From positions 1 through 20,704 of the IMG/VR virus record IMGVR_UViG_3300014839_000240: 20,704 nucleotides of DNA. The stretch is one strand, 5' to 3'. The stretch comes from a virus. The number at the start of each line of letters is the position of its first letter. The first letter of the stretch is position 1. Of the stretch, positions 1 to 17,782 are shown one piece after another. The position numbers and the translations under genes are program-made. The notes under the pieces are model-generated. The model saw only the letters and a program-made list of their open reading frames with translations, was not told where the DNA came from and did no database searches.

Positions 1-255
1 ACCCGTCAGGTTACAAAACACGGGCGACAATCCCATGGCATAAGGGCCTTGCTCGCCGTGGACCCAAACTGTGTCGCCGGGAGCGACCGAAGCATTCGCC
101 ACGCTCGGATTGGTAGTCGGGCAAATCTTCGTGATCGACCACGGAGACGCGAGCGTTCCGGGATTGGAGTCGGAGCCGGTCGGGCTGACATAGTACTCGG
201 ACGCGCTCAGTGCAGATGCTAATGACAATGCAAGCAGTGCGCTTAGTTTTTCCAT
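1..255 (-). CDS. Secreted-type parallel beta-helix protein (tailspike or depolymerase-like), 3' end cut by window edge
   Basis: Partial gene: 85 codons are visible and it runs off the left edge. Residues 1-19 form a Sec-type leader (MEKLSALLALSLASALSAS, with a small-residue cleavage site). Residues 21-40 (YYVSPTGSDSNPGTLASPWS) and 58-72 (APGDTVWVHGEQGPY) match the entry signature of right-handed parallel beta-helix proteins (YYVSP.G.DsNpGT...PF..i, then PGDTV.v..G.Y), seen in secreted pectate-lyase-like proteins and many phage tailspikes. By family analogy it would bind or cleave surface polysaccharide; the catalytic region is not in view. The ATG at 255 overlaps the end of the 596-aa fibre gene by 13 bases, so the genes are translationally linked, and the ribosome site is weak (GGTG about 8 bases upstream). 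The frame is secure because the motif is clear; the exact enzyme class is unknown. Confidence 0.7.
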   Translation of the reverse strand, partial: MEKLSALLALSLASALSASEYYVSPTGSDSNPGTLASPWSITKICPTTNPSVANASVAPGDTVWVHGEQGPYAMGLSPVFCNLTG

Positions 256-2033
256 AGTAACACCGTTGGATACAATGCCGTCGTATATGCCGACGTGCAA
301 CTTGATCCATTAAAGTCTAACGCTGCTCCGTTTCCGGTCATTGCCTGTGTGCAGTATCCCCCGGAAACGTTTCCGTCAAGAGCGCTCATAGTGTTAACGC
401 CCATCATTTTAAGCTGAAGCGCCGACGAATCTGTACCCACGGATAGATAATATATACCCGGAGTAAGCGTAATCGCTCCAATGCTACCGAGTAGAGCACC
501 TGTCGTGTTAATGTCAGGGCTTCCGCCAGAGACAAAGACTGAGGACTTGACTAGAATCGTTTTAGACGCATTTAGGATCGCAAACACCAGCCCGCACGTT
601 CCGCCTGAGCAACTCGTTCCCGAACCAACACCGACATCGAATGCGATGTGATCAACTGCGACGGTGACGTTAACCATGAATGCCGTCACGTACCACCGTG
701 AGGGTGTCATAGCGGCGCTAAGATCAGGGAAATTCCCAAATGGCTTAAAGAACGCCGATTTAGTCGCAGTGAACACAGCGGCCGCGTTACCGTTCGTAAG
801 ATTACCATTCGCGTCCCACGCGGGGGTATTCCCGGAGGTCTTGCTGCTAGCATCCGCAGTTACCATAGCGGTTGTGTTCCCAGTTCGAGTTCCCACAGCT
901 ACAGCATTTAGGCCAGCTCCGAGCACGGGAGCATTGAGTGTCAGGGCTGAACCGTTAGTGACCGTTCCAGATCCCGCAGCTCCGCCATCTTGCAATACGT
1001 TTCCGGTCCCATCTGCGAATGTTGCTACATGTCCAGTCGTTGAGCTTCCGGGGCCTGTGACTGTTCCTGCCGTCCCGCCATCCTTCGTCAACCCCGTTGT
1101 GCCGTCGAACACCACCACATGCCCGTCCGTCGGAGCTGAGGTCGGAGCCCCCAGCAACTGATGCCCGAACTGCGGATTCACGTCCACGAGCACGGTCCCA
1201 CTGGCAGCGGTAGTGAGCGCCTTTCCGAGGGTACGGATCGTGAACGCGACGGCCCCGATGCTCGTCTGTGTTGAATCGGCTACCTTGGTCGGATCGCCTG
1301 TGTCAGCCTGGAGATAATGCTGATCCGTCACCGCCGAGGCTATACTGACCGTCGTCGGCCCGCGTACAGTGACAAGGACAGGATCGCCGGGGTTCGTAGC
1401 GGCAGTTTCGGCGACACCCAAGATCATCTGCGTGTCTGCCGCCACCGGCCCTACCTGATCCGCCGCGACCCACTTCACGATGGAATGCGCCGTGATGGCT
1501 CCGTTGGCCGTGAGCCAGAAGGACGTACTCCGGCCAAGATCGGTCCAGACGTTCGTGGCGGAACACACGGAGAGGTGCAGGGAATCGGTGGCGAAGTACT
1601 GTGAGCCCGCCGTGCATGTCCCCGGAAGCGCCGAGGCGAGGCCCGTGGCTCCTACGCCGGTCCAGGACCATGTGCGCGTGTAGAGCCCGCCAACCAAGCT
1701 CCCACTGAGCCCCACGCCAGCCCCCGTCACGTCATTGACCGTGGCCGCCGTGCCGACCGCAGAGCCATTTATCTGGTAGGCCGTGTTGCCTGGAACTATC
1801 AGGGACAAGGCGCTCCTGACGGCCTTCTCGCTAGGCAGATTGGTGTCCGCGCCAGGAGAGCCTACCGTGGTCACGAGTCCAAGCGACGCGCCCCACGAGG
1901 TTCCTGCGACGGACTGCGGGATGCCAGCGGCAGGGTAAACCATCGACCCGCCGCCCGTGTTCGGAGGCGGGGTGATCTGCGCGACCAGCCCGCCCGCAAA
2001 CGTCAGTAACGAGAACAGAAGTGCTCTTTTCAT
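243..2033 (-). CDS. Tail fibre-like protein with N-terminal signal peptide (596 aa)
   Basis: Probable fibre or adhesin. Residues 1-19 are a Sec-type leader (MKRALLFSLLTFAGGLVAQ), followed by a Pro/Gly/Thr-rich region. Residues 65-76 (NLPSEKAVRSAL) and the two related segments GHVVVFDGTTGLTKDGG (304-320) and GHVATFADGTGNVLQDGG (334-351) are of the low-complexity type common in phage tail-fibre shafts. Around 391-412 a VTADASSKTSGNTPAWDANG segment continues that pattern. The C-terminal ~170 residues look like a separate globular domain with four cysteines and probably bind the receptor. The ATG at 2033 overlaps the upstream stop as ATGA. The DNA for the C-terminal part is visibly richer in A+T than the N-terminal part, suggesting module exchange. 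Fibre-like character is fairly sure; receptor and virion location are inferred. Confidence 0.75.
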   Translation of the reverse strand: MKRALLFSLLTFAGGLVAQITPPPNTGGGSMVYPAAGIPQSVAGTSWGASLGLVTTVGSPGADTNLPSEKAVRSALSLIVPGNTAYQINGSAVGTAATVNDVTGAGVGLSGSLVGGLYTRTWSWTGVGATGLASALPGTCTAGSQYFATDSLHLSVCSATNVWTDLGRSTSFWLTANGAITAHSIVKWVAADQVGPVAADTQMILGVAETAATNPGDPVLVTVRGPTTVSIASAVTDQHYLQADTGDPTKVADSTQTSIGAVAFTIRTLGKALTTAASGTVLVDVNPQFGHQLLGAPTSAPTDGHVVVFDGTTGLTKDGGTAGTVTGPGSSTTGHVATFADGTGNVLQDGGAAGSGTVTNGSALTLNAPVLGAGLNAVAVGTRTGNTTAMVTADASSKTSGNTPAWDANGNLTNGNAAAVFTATKSAFFKPFGNFPDLSAAMTPSRWYVTAFMVNVTVAVDHIAFDVGVGSGTSCSGGTCGLVFAILNASKTILVKSSVFVSGGSPDINTTGALLGSIGAITLTPGIYYLSVGTDSSALQLKMMGVNTMSALDGNVSGGYCTQAMTGNGAALDFNGSSCTSAYTTALYPTVLLWKN

Positions 2034-2332
2034 GGCTTTGTCTCTACTATTGCTTGGCGCTTCACGATGCGCTTGTTCGGGAGGTCGATATCGTACTGGT
2101 CCTCGGGGAGCTTGGCGCGGCCCAGGATGGCCTTGCGCTCGGCGCGCGCCTCGGCCTTCAGGCGCTCGACCTCGACCTTCATCTGGTCGATGCGCTCAGT
2201 GTAAAGTTCCACCTTCAGAAGCGTGTTCTCTAGCGTGAGGGCTTCCTCGGTGGTGAGCGTTGATTCGGGAGCGGGCCTATCTTGGGCCACCAGGAGGCCA
2301 GCGAAGAGTAGAACGAAGATTAGTTGTCGCAT
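2030..2332 (-). CDS. Small exported or membrane-anchored coiled-coil protein (100 aa)
   Basis: Unrecognised small protein. Residues 1-17 (MRQLIFVLLFAGLLVAQ) form a hydrophobic leader or anchor. Residues about 27-75 are a charged helix with heptad-like spacing of Leu/Val/Ile (ENTLLKVELYTERIDQMKVE and onwards), predicted coiled coil; the tail is basic. The ATG at 2332 follows the stop of the 726-aa fibre gene by two bases, and the stop overlaps the next start as ATGA, so it sits inside the fibre operon. A longer in-frame reading from 2455 overlaps the previous gene and was not used. An N-terminal hydrophobic segment followed by a periplasmic coiled coil is also the topology of an inner-membrane spanin, but no outer-membrane lipoprotein partner is visible. 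A fibre chaperone or periplasmic factor is equally possible. Confidence 0.7.
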   Translation of the reverse strand: MRQLIFVLLFAGLLVAQDRPAPESTLTTEEALTLENTLLKVELYTERIDQMKVEVERLKAEARAERKAILGRAKLPEDQYDIDLPNKRIVKRQAIVETKP

Positions 2333-2334
2333 AG

Positions 2335-4515
2335 CTAAGTCCCCACGCACACCAGATATATGGCATCGCTCCCGGTTCCCGTCACCGTGATTTGCGATCC
2401 CGATATGTTCACCACCTTGAAGGGATTCACGGAGACCTTGTTCGATCCGCCACAATCGTAACTGGTCGAGCTGGTGAATGCGCCCGCACCAGGAAAGGTG
2501 TAAGTTGCGGAGCCGGAACTCATCACAACAAACGCTATGTTGATTTTGGCCCCCGACACCGGGTTTCCAGAGGAGTCATGCACTTCCGGCGTGTAATTGG
2601 CATCGGCAAACGTGCCATCGGCATCTGGGAAGATCCACTGTCGGGCTATAGACGGGGTTCCTGGGTTGATACGAATAAATGGGGCTCCAATACTGCCGCT
2701 GAACCCAATTGTCAGCATCTTGGAGACTTCAAGCCCCCAATCCTTGTCTAGCCAGCATATATCCGTGGGGGTCCCGCCCTGGATGCTCCAGGAGAACTTC
2801 AGCCAGCCGTTTACCCAGTGTTGGATAGACCAGTCGTCCATTTCCTGTGCTCCCCCCACTACTTGTTGCATTCGGAAAGTGACGATGTTGCTAGGATTGG
2901 TGTTCAGCCCGGCGTACCCACGAGAATCAAGGAGGATTCCGATTGTGGGGGACGCGATAATATCTCCCGCGAAGTGCGTGAACAGGCTCTCCGTACTTCC
3001 TCCACCGACAATAATACCATAGGCTCCCGGCGTCGTTACCCGCAAGCCAGCGATAGGATCTACAAGGTCGTTGGTGGTGATCCAGAGGCCCTGCTCGTAG
3101 GTGTTGGTAATGAGTTCTCCCAGCCTCCAGAGCGCGGTCGGTGTGCCATTTATAGAGAGCGCCACCGTGTGCCTGTGGCTGCCAGCTCCGATGATCGACT
3201 CGCCGATTGAGTAGACCCCGGCGTTCTGATTCCACACTGCATCTGCTCCGCTGTCGTTCTCGATATCCACCTCTAGTCCATTGACCGTTCGGGTGTAACC
3301 CGAGTTGAGCAGTACGTTGGTGGGATTGTTCCACCCGACGTTGATGTTGGCTCCCTGCAAGCCCTCCGTCACATTGGTGAGCGGAGCACCGGACGGCTTC
3401 TTGTCATACAACGCGATGCCAAGCCCGTAAACCGGATAACCGACTCCGTCGCTCGACTGATACCCCGTCCCGTTGACAAGAATACCCATCTGGTCGCTCA
3501 TCCCCTGACTGGTATTCGGATTGGTCATATCGATACGGAAGATCGGCGCGCTGCACGGGCCGAGGATACCTCCAGAGGGACACTGGGAGCGATCCGTGGT
3601 GTCGTACCGGCTCAAATACAGATCCGGGTTCCACAGGTAACGGTCGTGTGTCGCCGTCTGGATCGATAGACCTGGAGAGAACGTAGCTTCGGAACTGGTG
3701 TAGTTCGATGCACGTCCCTGGTACGGCGTAACAAGACTTGACTGCGTAACCGGACCCTCGCATCCGAGCAGGATCATGTTCCCGGTCGAGGTCATGTTCC
3801 CAAGCATGAGGTTGTACGCCGCCGTGTTGTCGCTCGACCCGTTACAGGGAGCGCCAAAGTCGTTCACCGAGTGTGTGTCGGCGAGCTTCGAGTTCTTGAC
3901 CCGGTTAGCGATCGCGCCACTCCAGCCAGTCGCCGGTGGATCGAAGAACGGGTCGATCACGGCGGTCGCGCCATGCGTGAACGGGGTAACGATACCGCCA
4001 CCGGAAAGCTGCACCTCGTAGTTGTAGTCGTCGGCGTGGAAGAAGTAGAAGCCGCTCGTGTTCGCCGTGAACGGGTTCGCGAGCGCGGTACCGGCATTGT
4101 CCGAGTAGATCGCAGCCGGAGCGTTCAGGACCCCGTAAGGCACTCCCGATTGCGTTCCCGCGCTAGTGGTCAGCGTCATCGAAGTGGTGGAGCCCACGGA
4201 GTTGATAGTGTAACTTACGGAATTGATCGAGATCGCGAGACCAGACCATTGGCCGTTCGGATTGAACAACGTCCCCGATACCCACGTCACCACCAAACCG
4301 GAAGTAGAGACAGCCCCAACTGCACCACCCGTGATGTAAACTGTCACCGTGCAACTCGGATAGGAACGCTGGACTGGTGTTGAGACAGAACTCACCAGGC
4401 CAATGACAGTCACGGTTTGGTTTCCCTGTTCACACCATCCCTGGAATCGCGCTCGTCCGAACGCGCTCCCACCCGCCAGTAGAACCAACACCACCAATCG
4501 CGCCCACACGGTCAC
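2335..4515 (-). CDS. Beta-helix tail fibre or tailspike with signal peptide (726 aa)
   Basis: Probable receptor-binding or depolymerase protein. The GTG at 4515 is chosen because a strong Shine-Dalgarno (AAGGGAGAG) lies six bases upstream; a nearby ATG at 4533 overlaps the upstream stop but has no usable spacer. From the GTG, residues 1-22 are a hydrophobic leader (MTVWARLVVLVLLAGGSAFG, then RA). Residues 136-173 hold the YSDNAGTALANPF...GFYFFHADDYNYEVQLSG pattern common in phage fibre N-termini. Residues 216-234 (SVNDFGAPCNGSSDNTAAY) match the start of pectate-lyase-type beta-helices (V.DFGA..DG..DdTaA). A long Gly/Asn/Thr-rich region follows, and a small Cys-containing C-terminal domain ends in ITVTGTGSDAIYLVCVGT. 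No catalytic residues can be assigned. It is followed two bases later by the 100-aa coiled-coil gene. Confidence 0.78.
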   Translation of the reverse strand: MTVWARLVVLVLLAGGSAFGRARFQGWCEQGNQTVTVIGLVSSVSTPVQRSYPSCTVTVYITGGAVGAVSTSGLVVTWVSGTLFNPNGQWSGLAISINSVSYTINSVGSTTSMTLTTSAGTQSGVPYGVLNAPAAIYSDNAGTALANPFTANTSGFYFFHADDYNYEVQLSGGGIVTPFTHGATAVIDPFFDPPATGWSGAIANRVKNSKLADTHSVNDFGAPCNGSSDNTAAYNLMLGNMTSTGNMILLGCEGPVTQSSLVTPYQGRASNYTSSEATFSPGLSIQTATHDRYLWNPDLYLSRYDTTDRSQCPSGGILGPCSAPIFRIDMTNPNTSQGMSDQMGILVNGTGYQSSDGVGYPVYGLGIALYDKKPSGAPLTNVTEGLQGANINVGWNNPTNVLLNSGYTRTVNGLEVDIENDSGADAVWNQNAGVYSIGESIIGAGSHRHTVALSINGTPTALWRLGELITNTYEQGLWITTNDLVDPIAGLRVTTPGAYGIIVGGGSTESLFTHFAGDIIASPTIGILLDSRGYAGLNTNPSNIVTFRMQQVVGGAQEMDDWSIQHWVNGWLKFSWSIQGGTPTDICWLDKDWGLEVSKMLTIGFSGSIGAPFIRINPGTPSIARQWIFPDADGTFADANYTPEVHDSSGNPVSGAKINIAFVVMSSGSATYTFPGAGAFTSSTSYDCGGSNKVSVNPFKVVNISGSQITVTGTGSDAIYLVCVGT

Positions 4516-4521
4516 AATATA

Positions 4522-4530
4522 CTCTCCCTT
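4522..4530 (-). promoter_or_regulatory. Shine-Dalgarno that decides a GTG start
   Basis: On the minus strand AAGGGAGAG is followed by TATATT and then GTG (4515-4513). This places the start of the 726-aa fibre at the GTG and makes its signal peptide begin MTVWARL. The ATG at 4533-4531, which overlaps the previous gene's TGA, lies immediately upstream of this site and would be preceded by GCGGAG with no spacer. Confidence 0.6.
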
Positions 4531-6206
4531 CATCTCCGCAGATACGGTACAAAGACCTCGTTCGCCACATCGATCGAACCGCCGGAACCGGCAGTAAGAG
4601 TTCCCGCTGCGTGCAAATGCGCCGACCCGGCCCCGGAAGTGAGCGCTTGAGCCGCGTACGGCGTAGGTACGTATTCCGCGTAGCCCCAAATGTTGATAAC
4701 CGCCGCCGTCGTTGTCACCTGATACTGCAACGGCAACGCCCCGAGGTTTGCCTGCGCGCCCCAGAGGTAGAAAGAGAGCGGGCCACCGGAAGACGCCAGG
4801 AACTCGATCCCGTCGCTGCCTCCGCCGCTTGCAAGGAATGGTGTTATGAGAGTCACAGCCGGGTGTCCGACGCAAAGCCTTTGCCAGTAGCCCAGTATCG
4901 AATTGGACATATCCACAGACATTAGCCCGTAAGCTACGCCACGAGGGTTCTGAATGTAGAGGATTCCCGAAGTCGAGATCGCTTGAATCCAGCAGGACAC
5001 ATTGTACGGCCCGTTCAAACTAGCCGGAGCTGCTTGTTCAAGTACGTCAGGGAAAGCGTTGATCGCGGCCACCGTAGCTCCAGTTACGTTACCGTCTGGA
5101 GCCTGCTTGGTATTGTTCACCACGGTGACCAGACCAGCGAAGATCCAAGGCGTCGTAGCTGGCGCTTGCGACTGGAGCAGGTAGTTCTGACCACCGCTGT
5201 TGCCACCAATGAGCAGTTGCAATGAACGGTTGTCTGGGATCGTGACCCCGTGCGTGTGCGCCGCCTCGGTCGCGGTCGATCCGGTAACCGCACCTCCACT
5301 ACTGCTCGCGGGGTTCGCCACACCCGTGAACGCCGCGCCACCTTTCAAGTACAAACCTGCTTGGATAGAGTCGAACCGCGTGATCGCCCCGACCGCTCCG
5401 TACTGAAGCAGATATGTGAGGGGATGAGTCGCGCTGATCGAGTATCCATCGTCTCCTTGTCCGTTGAGCGCGATCCACGCCGGAGGACCAAGGGTCGCCG
5501 CGCTCATCACGATGTAACCTGACTGCGGATCGTTGTAGTCCCATACGAAACCGCCGGGACCTCCGCCCCAAGACCAGCGCAGTTTATGTGCGTAATCGGT
5601 AACCGCGATGATCGCTCCGTCATCGTACTGTCCGAATGCAAGACCGGCAATAGCCGACTGCACAACCCGGTACACACCGGTCAGATAGGCCCAGTGGCTC
5701 GCCGCGAGAGTACCGGCGTTGATGTAGAGCAAATGCGTATCCGTCTCCCAGAACAGGATGCCGACCGGATACGTAGCGGCGGGGTAGTTCGCAATCCGAT
5801 GGGCTCGGGTGTCCGACAACACCACACCAGCCGCCGGGACCACTTGCCAAGCGCCCGGCTGCGTTGCCGCGTTGTACCAATAGAGCAGACCGTTAAAGAT
5901 AACGACCGTGCCATTCTGAGCGAGCGGATCGGGCGGTACCGGCAGTGCCTTGACCACTTGGAAGAAGGGAACTTGTGGCTGTGCGAGCAAACCGATCAGG
6001 TTCGAGACGTTAAGCGGGTCCGATCCGTCCGCTTGAAGCGCAGCCTCGATCGCCGCGTAATCGACCGTAGGAGCGGGAGACGAACCGATAGCCGATACCC
6101 TGCCCTCCAAACCCGTAAATGCCTGCTGCACCTGGCGCAAGTAACGTTCAGCCAGCGGGTCGATACGGCCATTCAGGACAGGCGGCGCGAGCGTCTGGTT
6201 AGCCAT
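4530..6206 (-). CDS. Tail fibre or receptor-binding-type structural protein (558 aa)
   Basis: Probable tail protein without an export leader (it starts MANQTLAPPVLNGRIDP). Residues about 15-45 (AERYLRQVQQAFTGLEGRVS) form a helix suitable for attachment to the tail. The stretch NGTVVIFNGLLYWYNAATQP...LSDTRAHRIANYPA...LFWETDTHLLYIN resembles a repeat found in phage structural proteins, with DT..R...YP and YE.D..llY elements. The rest is Gly/Ala/Ser/Thr-rich beta-type sequence. Two His motifs (AAHTHGVTI in the middle and SAHLHAAG near the C-terminus) recall metal-coordinating HxH sites of trimeric fibres. Its ATG overlaps the end of the nozzle-like gene by eight bases, and its stop overlaps the ATG at 4533. 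As the first fibre gene after the nozzle it may link nozzle and distal fibres; that is inference. Confidence 0.65.
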   Translation of the reverse strand: MANQTLAPPVLNGRIDPLAERYLRQVQQAFTGLEGRVSAIGSSPAPTVDYAAIEAALQADGSDPLNVSNLIGLLAQPQVPFFQVVKALPVPPDPLAQNGTVVIFNGLLYWYNAATQPGAWQVVPAAGVVLSDTRAHRIANYPAATYPVGILFWETDTHLLYINAGTLAASHWAYLTGVYRVVQSAIAGLAFGQYDDGAIIAVTDYAHKLRWSWGGGPGGFVWDYNDPQSGYIVMSAATLGPPAWIALNGQGDDGYSISATHPLTYLLQYGAVGAITRFDSIQAGLYLKGGAAFTGVANPASSSGGAVTGSTATEAAHTHGVTIPDNRSLQLLIGGNSGGQNYLLQSQAPATTPWIFAGLVTVVNNTKQAPDGNVTGATVAAINAFPDVLEQAAPASLNGPYNVSCWIQAISTSGILYIQNPRGVAYGLMSVDMSNSILGYWQRLCVGHPAVTLITPFLASGGGSDGIEFLASSGGPLSFYLWGAQANLGALPLQYQVTTTAAVINIWGYAEYVPTPYAAQALTSGAGSAHLHAAGTLTAGSGGSIDVANEVFVPYLRR

Positions 6207-9200
6207 TAGTGATCCCCGCGAACGGCTTGTAGGGCTGGTAGGCTCCCTGTCCGGCCCACGGCTTCACGTTCACCGTCGTCTCGTCCGGGTAGAGGACAAA
6301 CGCGCTACCATCGCTCGTGTACGCCTTGTAGAGAAAGAGCTTGCCTTTCACTGGAGGGGCGGGCAGATAGACCTTCCGGTACAGACCGGTGGTGGACGGC
6401 AGTGCCGCAATCGGGATCGGTACGCCATCGACCACCACTACGACCAGGACCGTTGCCGCCGAGATCACCGAGTACCAGCCCTCGCGCAGATGAGCGAATC
6501 CTTGAATCCCGTGATCGACCGCCTGCGAGATCACAACCGGAGCCAGATAGGGTTGCAGCTCGACCGCCGGCTGGAACTCGTACAGGCTTCCCGCGCCAGA
6601 CCACTGCGCATCGAGCGAGATGTTCCGCCAGAGCGTGAGAGCGTTCGCCGCGAGCGCGAGCTGAGACTGTCCACGCGATCCCTGCGATGCGGCGCTTACC
6701 ACTTGAGACGAGAAGTTGTCGAACAGGATCGCGAGCGTGAACGATCCGGCGCAGTCGAGCATCGCGTCGGTCCCGAGCTTCTGCGCGCGGGTATCGCCGA
6801 GATCCAGACAAGCCGTACGGGCCTGACAGGTAAACGTCTCCGTTCCCGCAGTTGAGAACTTGTAGAGCCCACCATTGGCGCCACCTACCAGCAGGGACTC
6901 CAGTTCCCCACCCTCTTCTTCGTAGACGTAGTAGGGAGCCGGCGTCGTATCGTAAGGGAACCAGCCGCCACCGTGGGCGAAGTCGTAGCGCATCATCCGG
7001 CGTACGCCACCTGTGTCCGCGTACAGGAAGTAGAGTTCGCTATCGGCCCAGCATAGCCGTAGCGCCACCGGACTGCCCGTATCGACAGGCTGATACCCAT
7101 TCACTGCTGTACCAGCCACGTCCGCTTGCGGGAACAGCGGGTAGAGCGAGTCGTCGGTCAGGCTCGGGCTCGCGCCACCACCCCAACTGTTCACGCTGGA
7201 TTCGGACCCGAAAAACGGTGTAGAACCTACACAGGAAAACCAGGGCGCGAACAATCCCTTCCCTGACGGTACTTCCTGCGCGATGAATCCGACACGCTGG
7301 TTGCCGGTCGGCGCGGTTGGCGAGAGCACGAACAAACGCAGCGGCGAGTACACGTACGCCTGCCCGTTCCAGGTAAAGGGCATGTAGAGCGGCTCAGACG
7401 GACTCGTAACCTCGATATTGTGCGTATCGGAAGCTGTGTCCGGGTCGCTCGGGTTCGTCCAATAGAGAATACCTGGGTTGTTCGGGTCACCCGCGCCGAA
7501 GATCACATTCGAGTTCAGATTGCCACCGTCACACTGGTAAGGCAGCGGCGTGCCGTAGAGAGTCGCTTCGGGGACTGAGAAGCCGACGCCTGACTGTGCG
7601 CCTGCCGACTCCACGATCTGAAGTCGTGTCGTGCTCTCCGGGCTATCGTAGAGCGTGTAGGCGAGACCGCCGACGATAATCTGGGAGCCTGGAGACCAAC
7701 GCACGTTAAATGCGTCACCTCCTGTGTTCAGAATCGTCGTGCCCACTACGTTACAGGTGCCTGCGCGCGGCAAATCGCTTGTGGGGAACGGTACGAAGTT
7801 GTCGAACTGGAGCGCCTCTCCGATAGTCAATGCGGCGTTCGTGAGGTCCACATTCGCGCTCGTCTGCGCGCTCGGGATCGAGGCCGCGAGCGTCCAGTTG
7901 TTGTTGTTGCCACCAAATACGAACACGTCGATTGTGTCTACCTGCGGGTCGGTAGGCGCTTGGAAGCCAGAGATAACCAGTCGCTCACGACGCGCGAAGA
8001 CTCCAGCGCGAGTCGCAGGCGCCGGGTTCGATCTCGATCCGATCGCCGCGGACCTGTAGCGGTAGGTCGAGAGCAGTTGTGTGCCGAGATCGCCGGTGTC
8101 CGGGCCGTAAGTGCCACCGATCCACCAGGAGGAAGCCAGCAGGACCATCGCGGCTGTCACGTTCAACTGGATGCGTATCGCCACCACGTTCGCAAGCGTC
8201 TTGGTCTGATCGCTTCCTACCCGGATCAGGCTGCTCATCGGGATCAGCAACTCGGTCCATTGACTGCCGCCGGGCACGGTCTCCGCGCCGACCGATTGAA
8301 TCCCCGATCCCTGTGACTGCCCCGGCTGTGGTGGAGACTGCGACAGCGGCAGATTAGGCACTACGCCGGGACCGTGCTGCTGCATCACAGCCGTTACCGT
8401 CTCTATATTCTGCTGGATGATCTGCTGCTGGAGAGCCGCCTGCTGCGACGAGAGCAGTGTGAGCGTACCAAGCGCATTGGCTTGCAGATTCGATTGCGTG
8501 AACGGATAGTAAAAGTAGTTCGCGTCAAACAACCCGTCCGAGATATCGATCTCGAACCGACCCTCGACGATGTTCTGAGGCTGATCGACCAGTACGCTCA
8601 AATGGATATAGTCATCGTTCGTGATCGGGCGGTTCCCTACCGTATTGAGGTTGTAAGCGCCTGCGAAGTTGACCCAGCCGATCCCGGTAGCGATAGACGA
8701 CTGGATCGCGACTCCGACCGCTGTCTCGGCCGCCGCGTGGGCGACAGTCGTATAAGCGCGCAGGCTGGCGTAGCCGGTCACCGTCTCACCAACTGCATGG
8801 GTCCCTGTCGTACTAGTGCGCAACGACGGGATGCCATCGGGGCCAACTGTCACCGACAGGATGCGTACCAGTTCGGCGTTCAGCAGGATCACCGCATCAC
8901 GCGCAAGACCGACTGTCGGAGCGGTCAGTACGACCGAGCAAGCGCCACTCGTTCCTGTGTCGTAGCTGATCGCGGAGATCGTAGTGGTCGTAATCGCCGG
9001 GAAGACATCGTGGATCTTGACGACCTCAGCGCTGTTAAGACGGATCAGCGCGCCCGGCTGGCAGTTATTGTCCATCGTCGCAAGCACGATAGAGCACCAG
9101 CCGGTAGTACCTACATCGTAGAGGATCTTACTGATCGTGGTCGAGAAGCGATTCTGGCTGACGGGCGCTCCGGCAGTGCCGCCAGCAGTCCAGGAAGCGA

Positions 9201-9711
9201 GCGCGGCGGTCGTGACAAAGTCGGCGATGTTGATGTAGTTGGGTATGCCGAGCGCGATAGACGGAGCTTGGTTAGGGGGCACGATGCCGGTCAGATAGTT
9301 GATTCCCGCGACATTGATCTTGCGCGAACGCGACGAGTCGCCGACGTACATCCAGGGAGCTGCGGACTGAAGCGGTCGGAACGGGACCAGCGAGGTTGGG
9401 TTGCCGCTGTAGCCGGTGTCCCGAATAGCCAGAGCATTCGTACCCGAGATAAGATGGCCCGCCGCGTCGGTGGCAATGCGCGCGTAAGTGCCGGTGGTCG
9501 GGTCGTTGAGCCGCCGCACCGACAGGACCGGACTGGCAGCCGCGGGCGAAGCGGCGAGCGCGAGCGGCGGCCGGGACGATACTACTCCTTCGCCGGCAGA
9601 CAAGACGTTGCGCAGAATCGGGAACTGGCCGGCAGGGAGCAGGTCAGGTGGGTTGGCGAGCCCCAGACCCTTGCAGATGTACTTGTACGACTTGCGCAGG
9701 AATTGAGGCAT
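6199..9711 (-). CDS. Large tail nozzle-like protein (T7 gp12 / P22 gp10-like), 1170 aa
   Basis: Probable tail tube/nozzle protein. Residues 14-50 (KGLGLANPPDLLPAGQFPIL, then N..SAGEGVVSSRPPL) match the opening pattern of podovirus nozzle proteins such as T7 gp12 (KGGISQQPD...N....EGL..RPP) and resemble P22 gp10. The C-terminal half has beta-propeller-like stretches, including ALRLCWADSELYFLYADTGG, MMRYDFAHGGGWFPYD and LLVGGANGGLYKF. At 1170 residues it is longer than T7 gp12 (about 794). Extra material includes a tandem duplication (about 196-237 and 248-287), a Gln-rich helix (411-446) and a Pro/Gln/Ser linker (450-470). It starts by a TGATG overlap with the 448-aa gene and ends overlapping the 558-aa fibre. 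The assignment rests on pattern similarity and gene order. Confidence 0.65.
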   Translation of the reverse strand: MPQFLRKSYKYICKGLGLANPPDLLPAGQFPILRNVLSAGEGVVSSRPPLALAASPAAASPVLSVRRLNDPTTGTYARIATDAAGHLISGTNALAIRDTGYSGNPTSLVPFRPLQSAAPWMYVGDSSRSRKINVAGINYLTGIVPPNQAPSIALGIPNYINIADFVTTAALASWTAGGTAGAPVSQNRFSTTISKILYDVGTTGWCSIVLATMDNNCQPGALIRLNSAEVVKIHDVFPAITTTTISAISYDTGTSGACSVVLTAPTVGLARDAVILLNAELVRILSVTVGPDGIPSLRTSTTGTHAVGETVTGYASLRAYTTVAHAAAETAVGVAIQSSIATGIGWVNFAGAYNLNTVGNRPITNDDYIHLSVLVDQPQNIVEGRFEIDISDGLFDANYFYYPFTQSNLQANALGTLTLLSSQQAALQQQIIQQNIETVTAVMQQHGPGVVPNLPLSQSPPQPGQSQGSGIQSVGAETVPGGSQWTELLIPMSSLIRVGSDQTKTLANVVAIRIQLNVTAAMVLLASSWWIGGTYGPDTGDLGTQLLSTYRYRSAAIGSRSNPAPATRAGVFARRERLVISGFQAPTDPQVDTIDVFVFGGNNNNWTLAASIPSAQTSANVDLTNAALTIGEALQFDNFVPFPTSDLPRAGTCNVVGTTILNTGGDAFNVRWSPGSQIIVGGLAYTLYDSPESTTRLQIVESAGAQSGVGFSVPEATLYGTPLPYQCDGGNLNSNVIFGAGDPNNPGILYWTNPSDPDTASDTHNIEVTSPSEPLYMPFTWNGQAYVYSPLRLFVLSPTAPTGNQRVGFIAQEVPSGKGLFAPWFSCVGSTPFFGSESSVNSWGGGASPSLTDDSLYPLFPQADVAGTAVNGYQPVDTGSPVALRLCWADSELYFLYADTGGVRRMMRYDFAHGGGWFPYDTTPAPYYVYEEEGGELESLLVGGANGGLYKFSTAGTETFTCQARTACLDLGDTRAQKLGTDAMLDCAGSFTLAILFDNFSSQVVSAASQGSRGQSQLALAANALTLWRNISLDAQWSGAGSLYEFQPAVELQPYLAPVVISQAVDHGIQGFAHLREGWYSVISAATVLVVVVVDGVPIPIAALPSTTGLYRKVYLPAPPVKGKLFLYKAYTSDGSAFVLYPDETTVNVKPWAGQGAYQPYKPFAGITNG
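7218..7234. repeat. Copy of the GTAGAACCTACAC palindrome inside the nozzle-like gene
   Basis: GTGTAGAACCTACACAG forms a six-base-pair stem with an AAC loop. On the minus strand it encodes C-V-G-S-T (followed by P) with codons TGT GTA GGT TCT ACA. It shares 15 consecutive bases (GTAGAACCTACACAG) with the copy in the 448-aa gene. Confidence 0.5.
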
Positions 9712-14673: not shown

Positions 14674-15183
14674 TTAGTTGACTCCTTGCAACTTGTCTTT
14701 GATCCGCTCCATTTCCTCATTCGTGTTTCCCACCCACCGTAATGCCTTGAGTTTTTCCCTCAATTCATTACGATAAGCAGTGAGTTCTGGAGGGTTGGGA
14801 GATCCTCTATGACCCCCCTCGCCGCGCGTTGTAGCGCGGTAAGCGAACGCGATATCCGCCTGATCTTGCTTGCAGATCAAGTACTGGTAACAGCCACGCA
14901 AAATCCACTCCGCCTTGCGACAGGATGTGTGCCACTTGATCTGACCACGGTAGCCTTCGCGGTACGATTTCCGCATCACGGTAACCGAACCGCCGAAGTG
15001 CTCCTTCAGCCAGATAATCATCCTGGGGTCGGTATTGCAGATCACGACGCGGAGCCAGACATCTTGTGGCCGGTCATTTCGACGGTTCATCAGGATAGAA
15101 CCTTCACCGTCGATCAAGGCCGCCAACCGTGCCCAGTCGATCTCGCTCGGCTTGAAACCTTCCGATGGATCTTTTCGCGTCAC
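14674..15183 (-). CDS. LAGLIDADG homing endonuclease, free-standing (169 aa)
   Basis: Residues 20-30 read LAALIDGEGSI, the LAGLIDADG dodecapeptide in its common L.GLIDGEGS form; the acidic Glu27 takes the catalytic metal-binding place. Only one such motif is present in 169 residues, so it should act as a homodimer, like I-CreI-type enzymes, cutting a long near-palindromic DNA site. The C-terminus is basic and helical (LREKLKALRWVGNTNEEMER). It starts with GTG at 15183, whose GTGA overlaps the scaffold stop, and it ends four bases before the capsid ATG, carrying the capsid ribosome site. Its DNA, especially about 14690-14800, is visibly poorer in G+C than its neighbours, which fits recent arrival. 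The likely target is the matching scaffold-capsid junction of phages lacking the gene. Confidence 0.85.
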   Translation of the reverse strand: MTRKDPSEGFKPSEIDWARLAALIDGEGSILMNRRNDRPQDVWLRVVICNTDPRMIIWLKEHFGGSVTVMRKSYREGYRGQIKWHTSCRKAEWILRGCYQYLICKQDQADIAFAYRATTRGEGGHRGSPNPPELTAYRNELREKLKALRWVGNTNEEMERIKDKLQGVN

Positions 15184-17581: not shown

Positions 17582-17782
17582 CTAGTGCAGCAATGGTTTG
17601 TGTAGGAACGCGCCGCCGCCACCCAACTGACCGATCAGGAAGTACAGCAGCACGATCAGGCAGATTGCGCCCCAGATCCAGCGGATCGGAACCGGGAAAC
17701 CGGAGCGGTCGCAGATGTAGAAGCCGCCCCAAACGGCTAAGACGAACACGATCACGATCACAAGAAGCGTAATCAGATCCAT
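17582..17782 (-). CDS. Small two-helix membrane protein, holin candidate (66 aa)
   Basis: Residues 3-24 (LITLLVIVIVFVLAVWGGFY and on) and about 35-50 (WIWGAICLIVLLYFLIG) are two hydrophobic helices joined by a short polar turn with Cys, Asp and Arg, followed by a Gly-rich, His-containing tail. A clear Shine-Dalgarno (GGGAGGT, seven-base spacer) precedes the ATG, 13 bases after the portal stop. Size and topology suit a class II holin, the pore that releases the lysozyme encoded at 20026-20439. The sequence also resembles small two-helix membrane proteins of unknown role (Thivi_2564-like pattern). The membrane location is fairly sure; the holin role is inference. Confidence 0.65.
   Translation of the reverse strand: MDLITLLVIVIVFVLAVWGGFYICDRSGFPVPIRWIWGAICLIVLLYFLIGQLGGGGAFLHKPLLH

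Follow-up and report, generated by a model that had tools for sequence, protein, structure and literature searches.

Sec-type leaders on a P22-type tailspike and its neighbours in a viral contig, with a possible two-compartment route to the virion

The window analysed here is an entire 20,704-nucleotide (20.7-kb) IMG/VR contig from a soil phage, and IMG/VR contigs are mostly fragments. At its left end lie four consecutive genes on the minus strand, arranged head to tail with short overlaps or a gap of zero, whose products all begin with a Sec-type signal peptide (Table 1). Leaders were called with the von Heijne 1986 matrix together with hydropathy, and gene starts were picked by a script that preferred leader-like ones; as controls, the exported proteins OmpA, MalE, Bla and PhoA gave scores of 10.5-17, and LacZ, RecA and EF-Tu scored 4 or less. 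The 726-aa protein carries the leader MTVWARLVVLVLLAGGSAFG, with a predicted cut before RARFQG and a score of 10.6, and the 100-aa protein carries MRQLIFVLLFAGLLVA, cut before QDRPAP, with a score of 7.6. The leader of the 596-aa protein, MKRALLFSLLTFAGGLVAQITPPP, scores 8.1; the matrix favours a cut at residue 13, but by eye the cut between VA and Q is likelier. The gene at the left edge, which is interrupted by the contig end, has the leader MEKLSALLALSLASALSASEYYVSP and a score of 9.4. No leader was called in the 15 other genes of the window, including those for the portal, capsid, nozzle and 558-aa fibre; a 66-aa gene (17582-17782) encodes a transmembrane segment with an acidic start, not a leader. 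The initial annotation had described both the four leaders and the leaderless state of the other structural genes, and the scoring bears it out. The 726-aa gene has an alternative start, ATG 4533, that overlaps the upstream stop; the leader is intact from either this codon or GTG 4515.

Table 1. Features at the left end of the window
Feature	Position	Strand	Basis
Tailspike gene with Sec-type leader, 726 aa (732 aa from ATG 4533)	2335..4515	-	leader and head-binding domain
Predicted signal peptide, residues 1-20, cut between AFG and RAR	4456..4515	-	leader scoring
Head-binding domain part 1, residues 22-61	4333..4452	-	alignment, model
Cys28 and Cys55, pair covarying with leader	4432-4434 and 4351-4353	-	head-binding domain part 1
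Insertion of ~70 aa within head-binding domain, missing in most relatives	4123..4332	-	alignment
Head-binding domain part 2, residues 132-186	3958..4122	-	alignment, model
Small protein, 100 aa; leader, then charged, helix-like stretch	2030..2332	-	leader scoring
Fibre-like protein with leader, 596 aa	243..2033	-	leader scoring
Fourth leader protein, N-terminal part, ends at contig edge	1..255	-	leader scoring
Leaderless fibre or adaptor, 558 aa, precedes leader genes	4530..6206	-	leader scoring, homology
Conserved nozzle-like tail protein, 1170 aa, leaderless	6199..9711	-	homology

The N-terminus of the 558-aa protein is homologous to short adaptor genes found at the same place in relatives, and the nozzle-like family is common to phages that have leader tailspikes and phages that have none. 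A gene at 14674-15183 (minus strand), named 169hnh by eye, separates the capsid gene from its neighbour; Tunturi_1 gp4, an annotated HNH endonuclease, is placed between portal and capsid. The window has no close DNA relatives among 50,697 phage records. Over the best segment its portal shares 51-81% identity with the portals of 24 other viral contig loci; it is 28% identical to those of Tunturi_1 and Tunturi_2, podoviruses isolated as lytic phages of the acidobacterium Tunturiibacter (PMC11924767). Whole-length relatives of the 726-aa and 596-aa proteins were absent from the phage records, and the 726-aa protein as a whole has none in the viral contigs either.

Behind its leader the 726-aa protein has an N-terminal domain that at least nine phages share in their first leader gene. 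Among these relatives the N-terminal 110-125 aa are conserved and the remainders mostly unrelated; the leader is hypervariable in sequence, and the domain adjoining it is conserved. A profile of the domain compared with PDB sequences gave five matches at E ≤ 1, all of them tailspikes, with E-values of 8e-5 to 5e-4 for Pan3 and 0.023 for the Pam1 "tailspike head-binding domain". AlphaFold modelled the domain from 70 homologues at a pLDDT of 90, and the fold matched Pan3 (Z 9.0), Pam1 (7.9) and P22 (1lkt; 7.3); the predicted structure of the window's own protein gave a Z of 7.9 to Pan3, and the viral structure predictions matching the domain include pectate-lyase-type tailspikes. Transthyretin-like and pilin domains match this beta-sandwich at similar Z, so the tailspike assignment rests on the sequence profile. 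The ~70-aa insertion sits between strands, and L034, L058, L115, L190 and L194 have other insertions close to this point. By profile and predicted fold, then, the product of 2335-4515 is a tailspike with a P22-type head-binding domain. P22-type tailspikes are defined in part by having no export signal, and its Sec-type leader makes the 726-aa protein a variant instead of an ordinary member. Its earlier description as a beta-helix fibre needs amending, in that the start may be 4533 and the beta-helix label is unproven: Pfam gave no matches, and an AlphaFold2 model of the whole mature protein is confident only in the head-binding domain.

Runs of large leader-bearing genes lie directly behind the nozzle and adaptor genes in several relatives (Tunturi_1, L028, L032, L034, L037, L038 and L079), so the comparison with related phages proposed in the initial annotation finds leaders at the same gene position in Tunturi_1 and in several viral contig loci. 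The leader genes encode 814, 1223, 385 and 402 aa plus two small products in L028, 750, 730 and 1785 aa in L034 and L037, and 1871 and 1059 aa in L038; L079 has four. The stretch AQITPPP behind the leader of the window's 596-aa protein recurs in the 385-aa leader protein of L028. No leaders occur at that position in G007, G012, G014, G017 and G018, which have the same portal or nozzle families, and gain or loss of the trait has thus taken place inside this group. Restriction by the host was rejected as an explanation of the leaders, since the fibres of Tunturi_3, which has the same host strain as Tunturi_1, are leaderless. In the siphovirus Tunturi_4 (PP885687; L046:34652-38325), gp113 and gp114 are adjacent leader-bearing fibre genes. 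Its gp114 shares 50% identity with residues 390-1002 of Tunturi_1 gp17 (which had no match in plasmids), and each has its own leader, so the two leaders were acquired separately. The head-binding domain is also matched on L150 and L155 (~134 kb), where the copies have leaders, and on L148 (89 kb); these contigs are too large for the 60-kb podovirus group, so the trait is not confined to one group of phages. Upstream of the nozzle gene many relatives have further giant leader proteins of 500-1550 aa (19 of 177 large upstream genes; for example L058:6356-9985, L062:5090-8215 and L093:1890-6344). One leader fibre gene, L032:7610-9778 (minus strand; leader MRRVLLSTLLICAAAIG, cut before QIYAPS), is inverted within its leader-gene run and is a possible invertible fibre cassette.

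The same caller found no leader among ORFs of at least 250 aa in T7 (0/14), lambda (0/18) and epsilon15 (0/15; 0/47 in total), and among lambda ORFs of at least 100 aa the sole positive was lom, a known exported protein. Since lom carries its leader among the lambda tail genes, the leader genes of the window might similarly be lysogenic-conversion (moron) genes of a prophage that alter the host surface. This is very improbable: the genes lie within a conserved structural order, between the nozzle and internal-protein genes, the docking domain is present, and pattern-based, non-exhaustive scans of a one-genome-per-species bacterial and archaeal collection gave no relative of the portal and none of the head-binding domain. 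The same scans, with a domain made for phage docking, leave unsupported the proposal that host secretion genes had been captured.

Scans for the domain gave 90 usable copies, of which 73 have a hydrophobic leader and 17 start with Met at the domain edge (for example MQRIQGWVEAGN). Each of L058 and L115 has one copy of either kind; the single head-binding-domain gene has a leader in G011, G008, G015 and Tunturi_1 and is leaderless in G020, G022, G024 and G025. Because sister phages, and even neighbouring genes within a single phage, differ in this respect, the leader would be an evolvable switch. The leader copies fit the Sec/signal peptidase I pattern of a basic n-region, a hydrophobic core and small residues at -3 and -1: the net charge of the n-region is +1 to +3 in 68 of 73, the residue at -1 is A in 49, G in 11, S in 9 and T in 4, and in 70 of 73 the predicted cut falls 0-9 aa ahead of the domain. 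The residue predicted at +1 is Gln in 34 of 73, perhaps because the signal peptidase of the host group prefers it. A SAR protein, weakly hydrophobic and uncleaved with no cleavage site, was rejected because the hydrophobic cores are strong and the predicted sites good; dual initiation, giving cytoplasmic and exported forms, was rejected because SD-backed internal starts at the domain are lacking in all 73 leader genes.

Two cysteines of the domain, in GW-C and PS-C contexts (Cys28 and Cys55 in the window), follow the presence of the leader. Both occur in 64 of 73 leader copies and in 0 of 17 leaderless copies (Fisher 3e-12); the nine leader copies without the full pair have one of the two (four copies) or neither (five), so among leader copies, too, the pair mostly behaves as a unit. 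After dereplication at 50% identity the counts are 16 of 20 and 0 of 7 (p 4e-4). In a Pagel-type test, on a tree built without the two cysteine columns and without the leader, the dependent model beat the independent one (LR 29.4, p 6.6e-6), and in L144, where a leaderless copy lies within a leader-bearing clade, both cysteines are lost. Leader proteins have 1.55 Cys per 100 aa against 0.84, and an even Cys count in 46 of 60 against 171 of 370, both comparisons being inflated by related sequences. The pair that tracks the leader, along with these rich and even counts, argues for folding in an oxidising compartment; the simplest reading is that a disulfide depends on the leader and forms only in the compartment to which the leader directs the protein.

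The hydrophobic N-terminus might instead stay uncleaved as a working part of the spike, such as a trimerisation or membrane-inserting segment, as its place at the extreme N-terminus, always adjoining the docking domain, would permit. Such a role is very improbable for a segment that is hypervariable and cleanly missing from 17 homologues, that has signal-peptidase-like -3/-1 positions (in each of the 73 copies, -1 is A, G, S or T), and that accompanies a cysteine covariation which needs an oxidising compartment. Wrong start codons could also make leaderless fibres look exported, the more so as the starts were scripted with a preference for leader-like ones. The depositors' starts in Tunturi_1 agree, however: of the six genes gp12-gp17, four (gp12, gp14, gp16 and gp17) pass strictly and the other two, gp13 and gp15, pass weakly, and outside these only 2 of 99 genes are positive, both with lipobox-like motifs. 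With SD-backed internal starts lacking, leaderless homologues cleanly separate and a cysteine pair outside the leader still tracking it, an annotation artefact is scarcely probable and is largely refuted.

The earlier suggestion that a whole sub-operon may be exported therefore gains support from the recurrence of leaders in relatives, the cuts at the domain boundary and the cysteine pair that tracks the leader, and export of the leader gene products is, as far as sequence can tell, well supported. The leaders, the placement of cleavage sites, the identity of the domain and the coevolution of cysteines with the leader all have sequence support; that the proteins are in fact exported and cleaved, form the disulfide, enter the virion and dock at or after lysis is what we infer. 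The genes at 1-4533 would encode a tailspike and fibre proteins with cleavable Sec signal peptides, which would cross the inner membrane by the host Sec system and lose the leader. The exported proteins would fold in the oxidising periplasm, where the first would close a disulfide in its N-terminal domain. Heads and tails, being leaderless, would assemble in the cytoplasm, so that spikes would meet particles only at lysis and docking would come last; the P22-type head-binding domain is what would allow the mature spike to dock on a short tail, and the virion membership of the spike is likewise drawn from it. The P22 tailspike is able to dock, as a soluble spike, onto finished particles. A periplasmic part in a phage assembled in the cytoplasm is an obvious difficulty for this route. 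We nevertheless regard Sec-exported tailspikes with a periplasmic disulfide and docking on virions at or after lysis as the probable, if far from assured, account; the fuller two-compartment build, with heads and tails made in the cytoplasm and exported, disulfide-bonded spikes docked only at lysis, stands at about an even chance. Of the options offered in the initial annotation, fibres added after export or at lysis fits best, as the first leader is followed by a tailspike head-binding domain.

A recognised docking domain is missing from the other three leader proteins of the window. If the anchor spike is exported its partner fibres must be too, which would explain the whole exported run; the neighbours would be co-exported, either to join the spike in a branched complex or to be released as proteins that bind or degrade glycans. 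The fourth protein has a YYVSPTGSDSNPGT motif and a weak Pel9A-like beta-helix match (E 0.011, below the cut-off). The 100-aa protein has no homologue among the loci examined. Small leader ORFs of 98-112 aa adjoin leader tailspikes in L028 (6981-7304), L032 (9754-10050), L063 (8309-8647) and the window (2030-2332), have no sequence similarity to each other, and are candidate spanins or periplasmic spike chaperones.

For these three neighbours above all, the main rival is that the leader proteins are exported without being virion parts, as soluble secreted adhesins or polysaccharide depolymerases whose role at lysis would be to loosen the envelope of the host or the matrix surrounding neighbouring cells, or to block re-adsorption, with the head-binding domain a leftover of tailspike ancestry. 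The evidence for export fits this too, as does the lack of a docking domain in three of four proteins, and Pantoea stewartii WceF is a tailspike fold serving as an exported bacterial enzyme (PMC7949094). Some leader proteins have Beta_helix, pectate-lyase-like, glycosyl hydrolase 43 or lectin-like domains (among 47, Beta_helix in 4 and Pect-lyase in 3), but such content does not discriminate virion spikes from released glycan-active proteins. A purely secreted role nonetheless seems unlikely, though it deserves serious weight: strong conservation of the docking domain while the remainder changes would be odd for a leftover, and G011, G008, G015 and Tunturi_1 have no head-binding-domain gene other than the leader copy.

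The exported, docking spike differs from the known systems that it resembles. P22 gp9 and Sf6 gp14 likewise have an N-terminal head-binding beta-sandwich followed by a variable receptor-binding part, on short tails; the P22 tailspike, however, is a leaderless product of the cytoplasm, and in the window's protein the domain follows a Sec leader and contains a cysteine pair. The cyanophage tailspikes of Pan3 and Pam1 (PDB 9vyg, 9vyh, 7eeq) are the closest solved relatives by profile and fold, the match covering the domain only. WceF, with its tailspike fold, is exported by a Tat signal and encoded by a bacterial gene in an exopolysaccharide locus, not by a phage tail gene; lambda Lom, whose leader gene also lies among tail genes, is a single outer-membrane protein of the lysogen and no spike. 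Filamentous phage pIII is a host-binding virion protein with a signal sequence and Sec dependence (PMC8310372), but its phage has ssDNA and is membrane-assembled and extruded, unlike tailed phages with their cytoplasmic assembly and lysis. In the open-access literature no published precedent was found for a Sec leader on a tailspike, nor a description, for any tailed phage, of spikes exported and then joined to the particle.

Assembly of tailed phages is taught as a cytoplasmic process. If the export route is true, part of the virion would come from a different compartment, have disulfides that could not form in the cytoplasm, and join the particle at or after lysis; the annotation and engineering of spikes would change. 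The route is testable now, since Tunturi_1 and Tunturi_2 are cultured with their host. It would raise new questions, among them the timing of docking and whether spare spikes act on neighbours, and would explain why giant exported proteins are encoded in runs in the genomes of soil phages.
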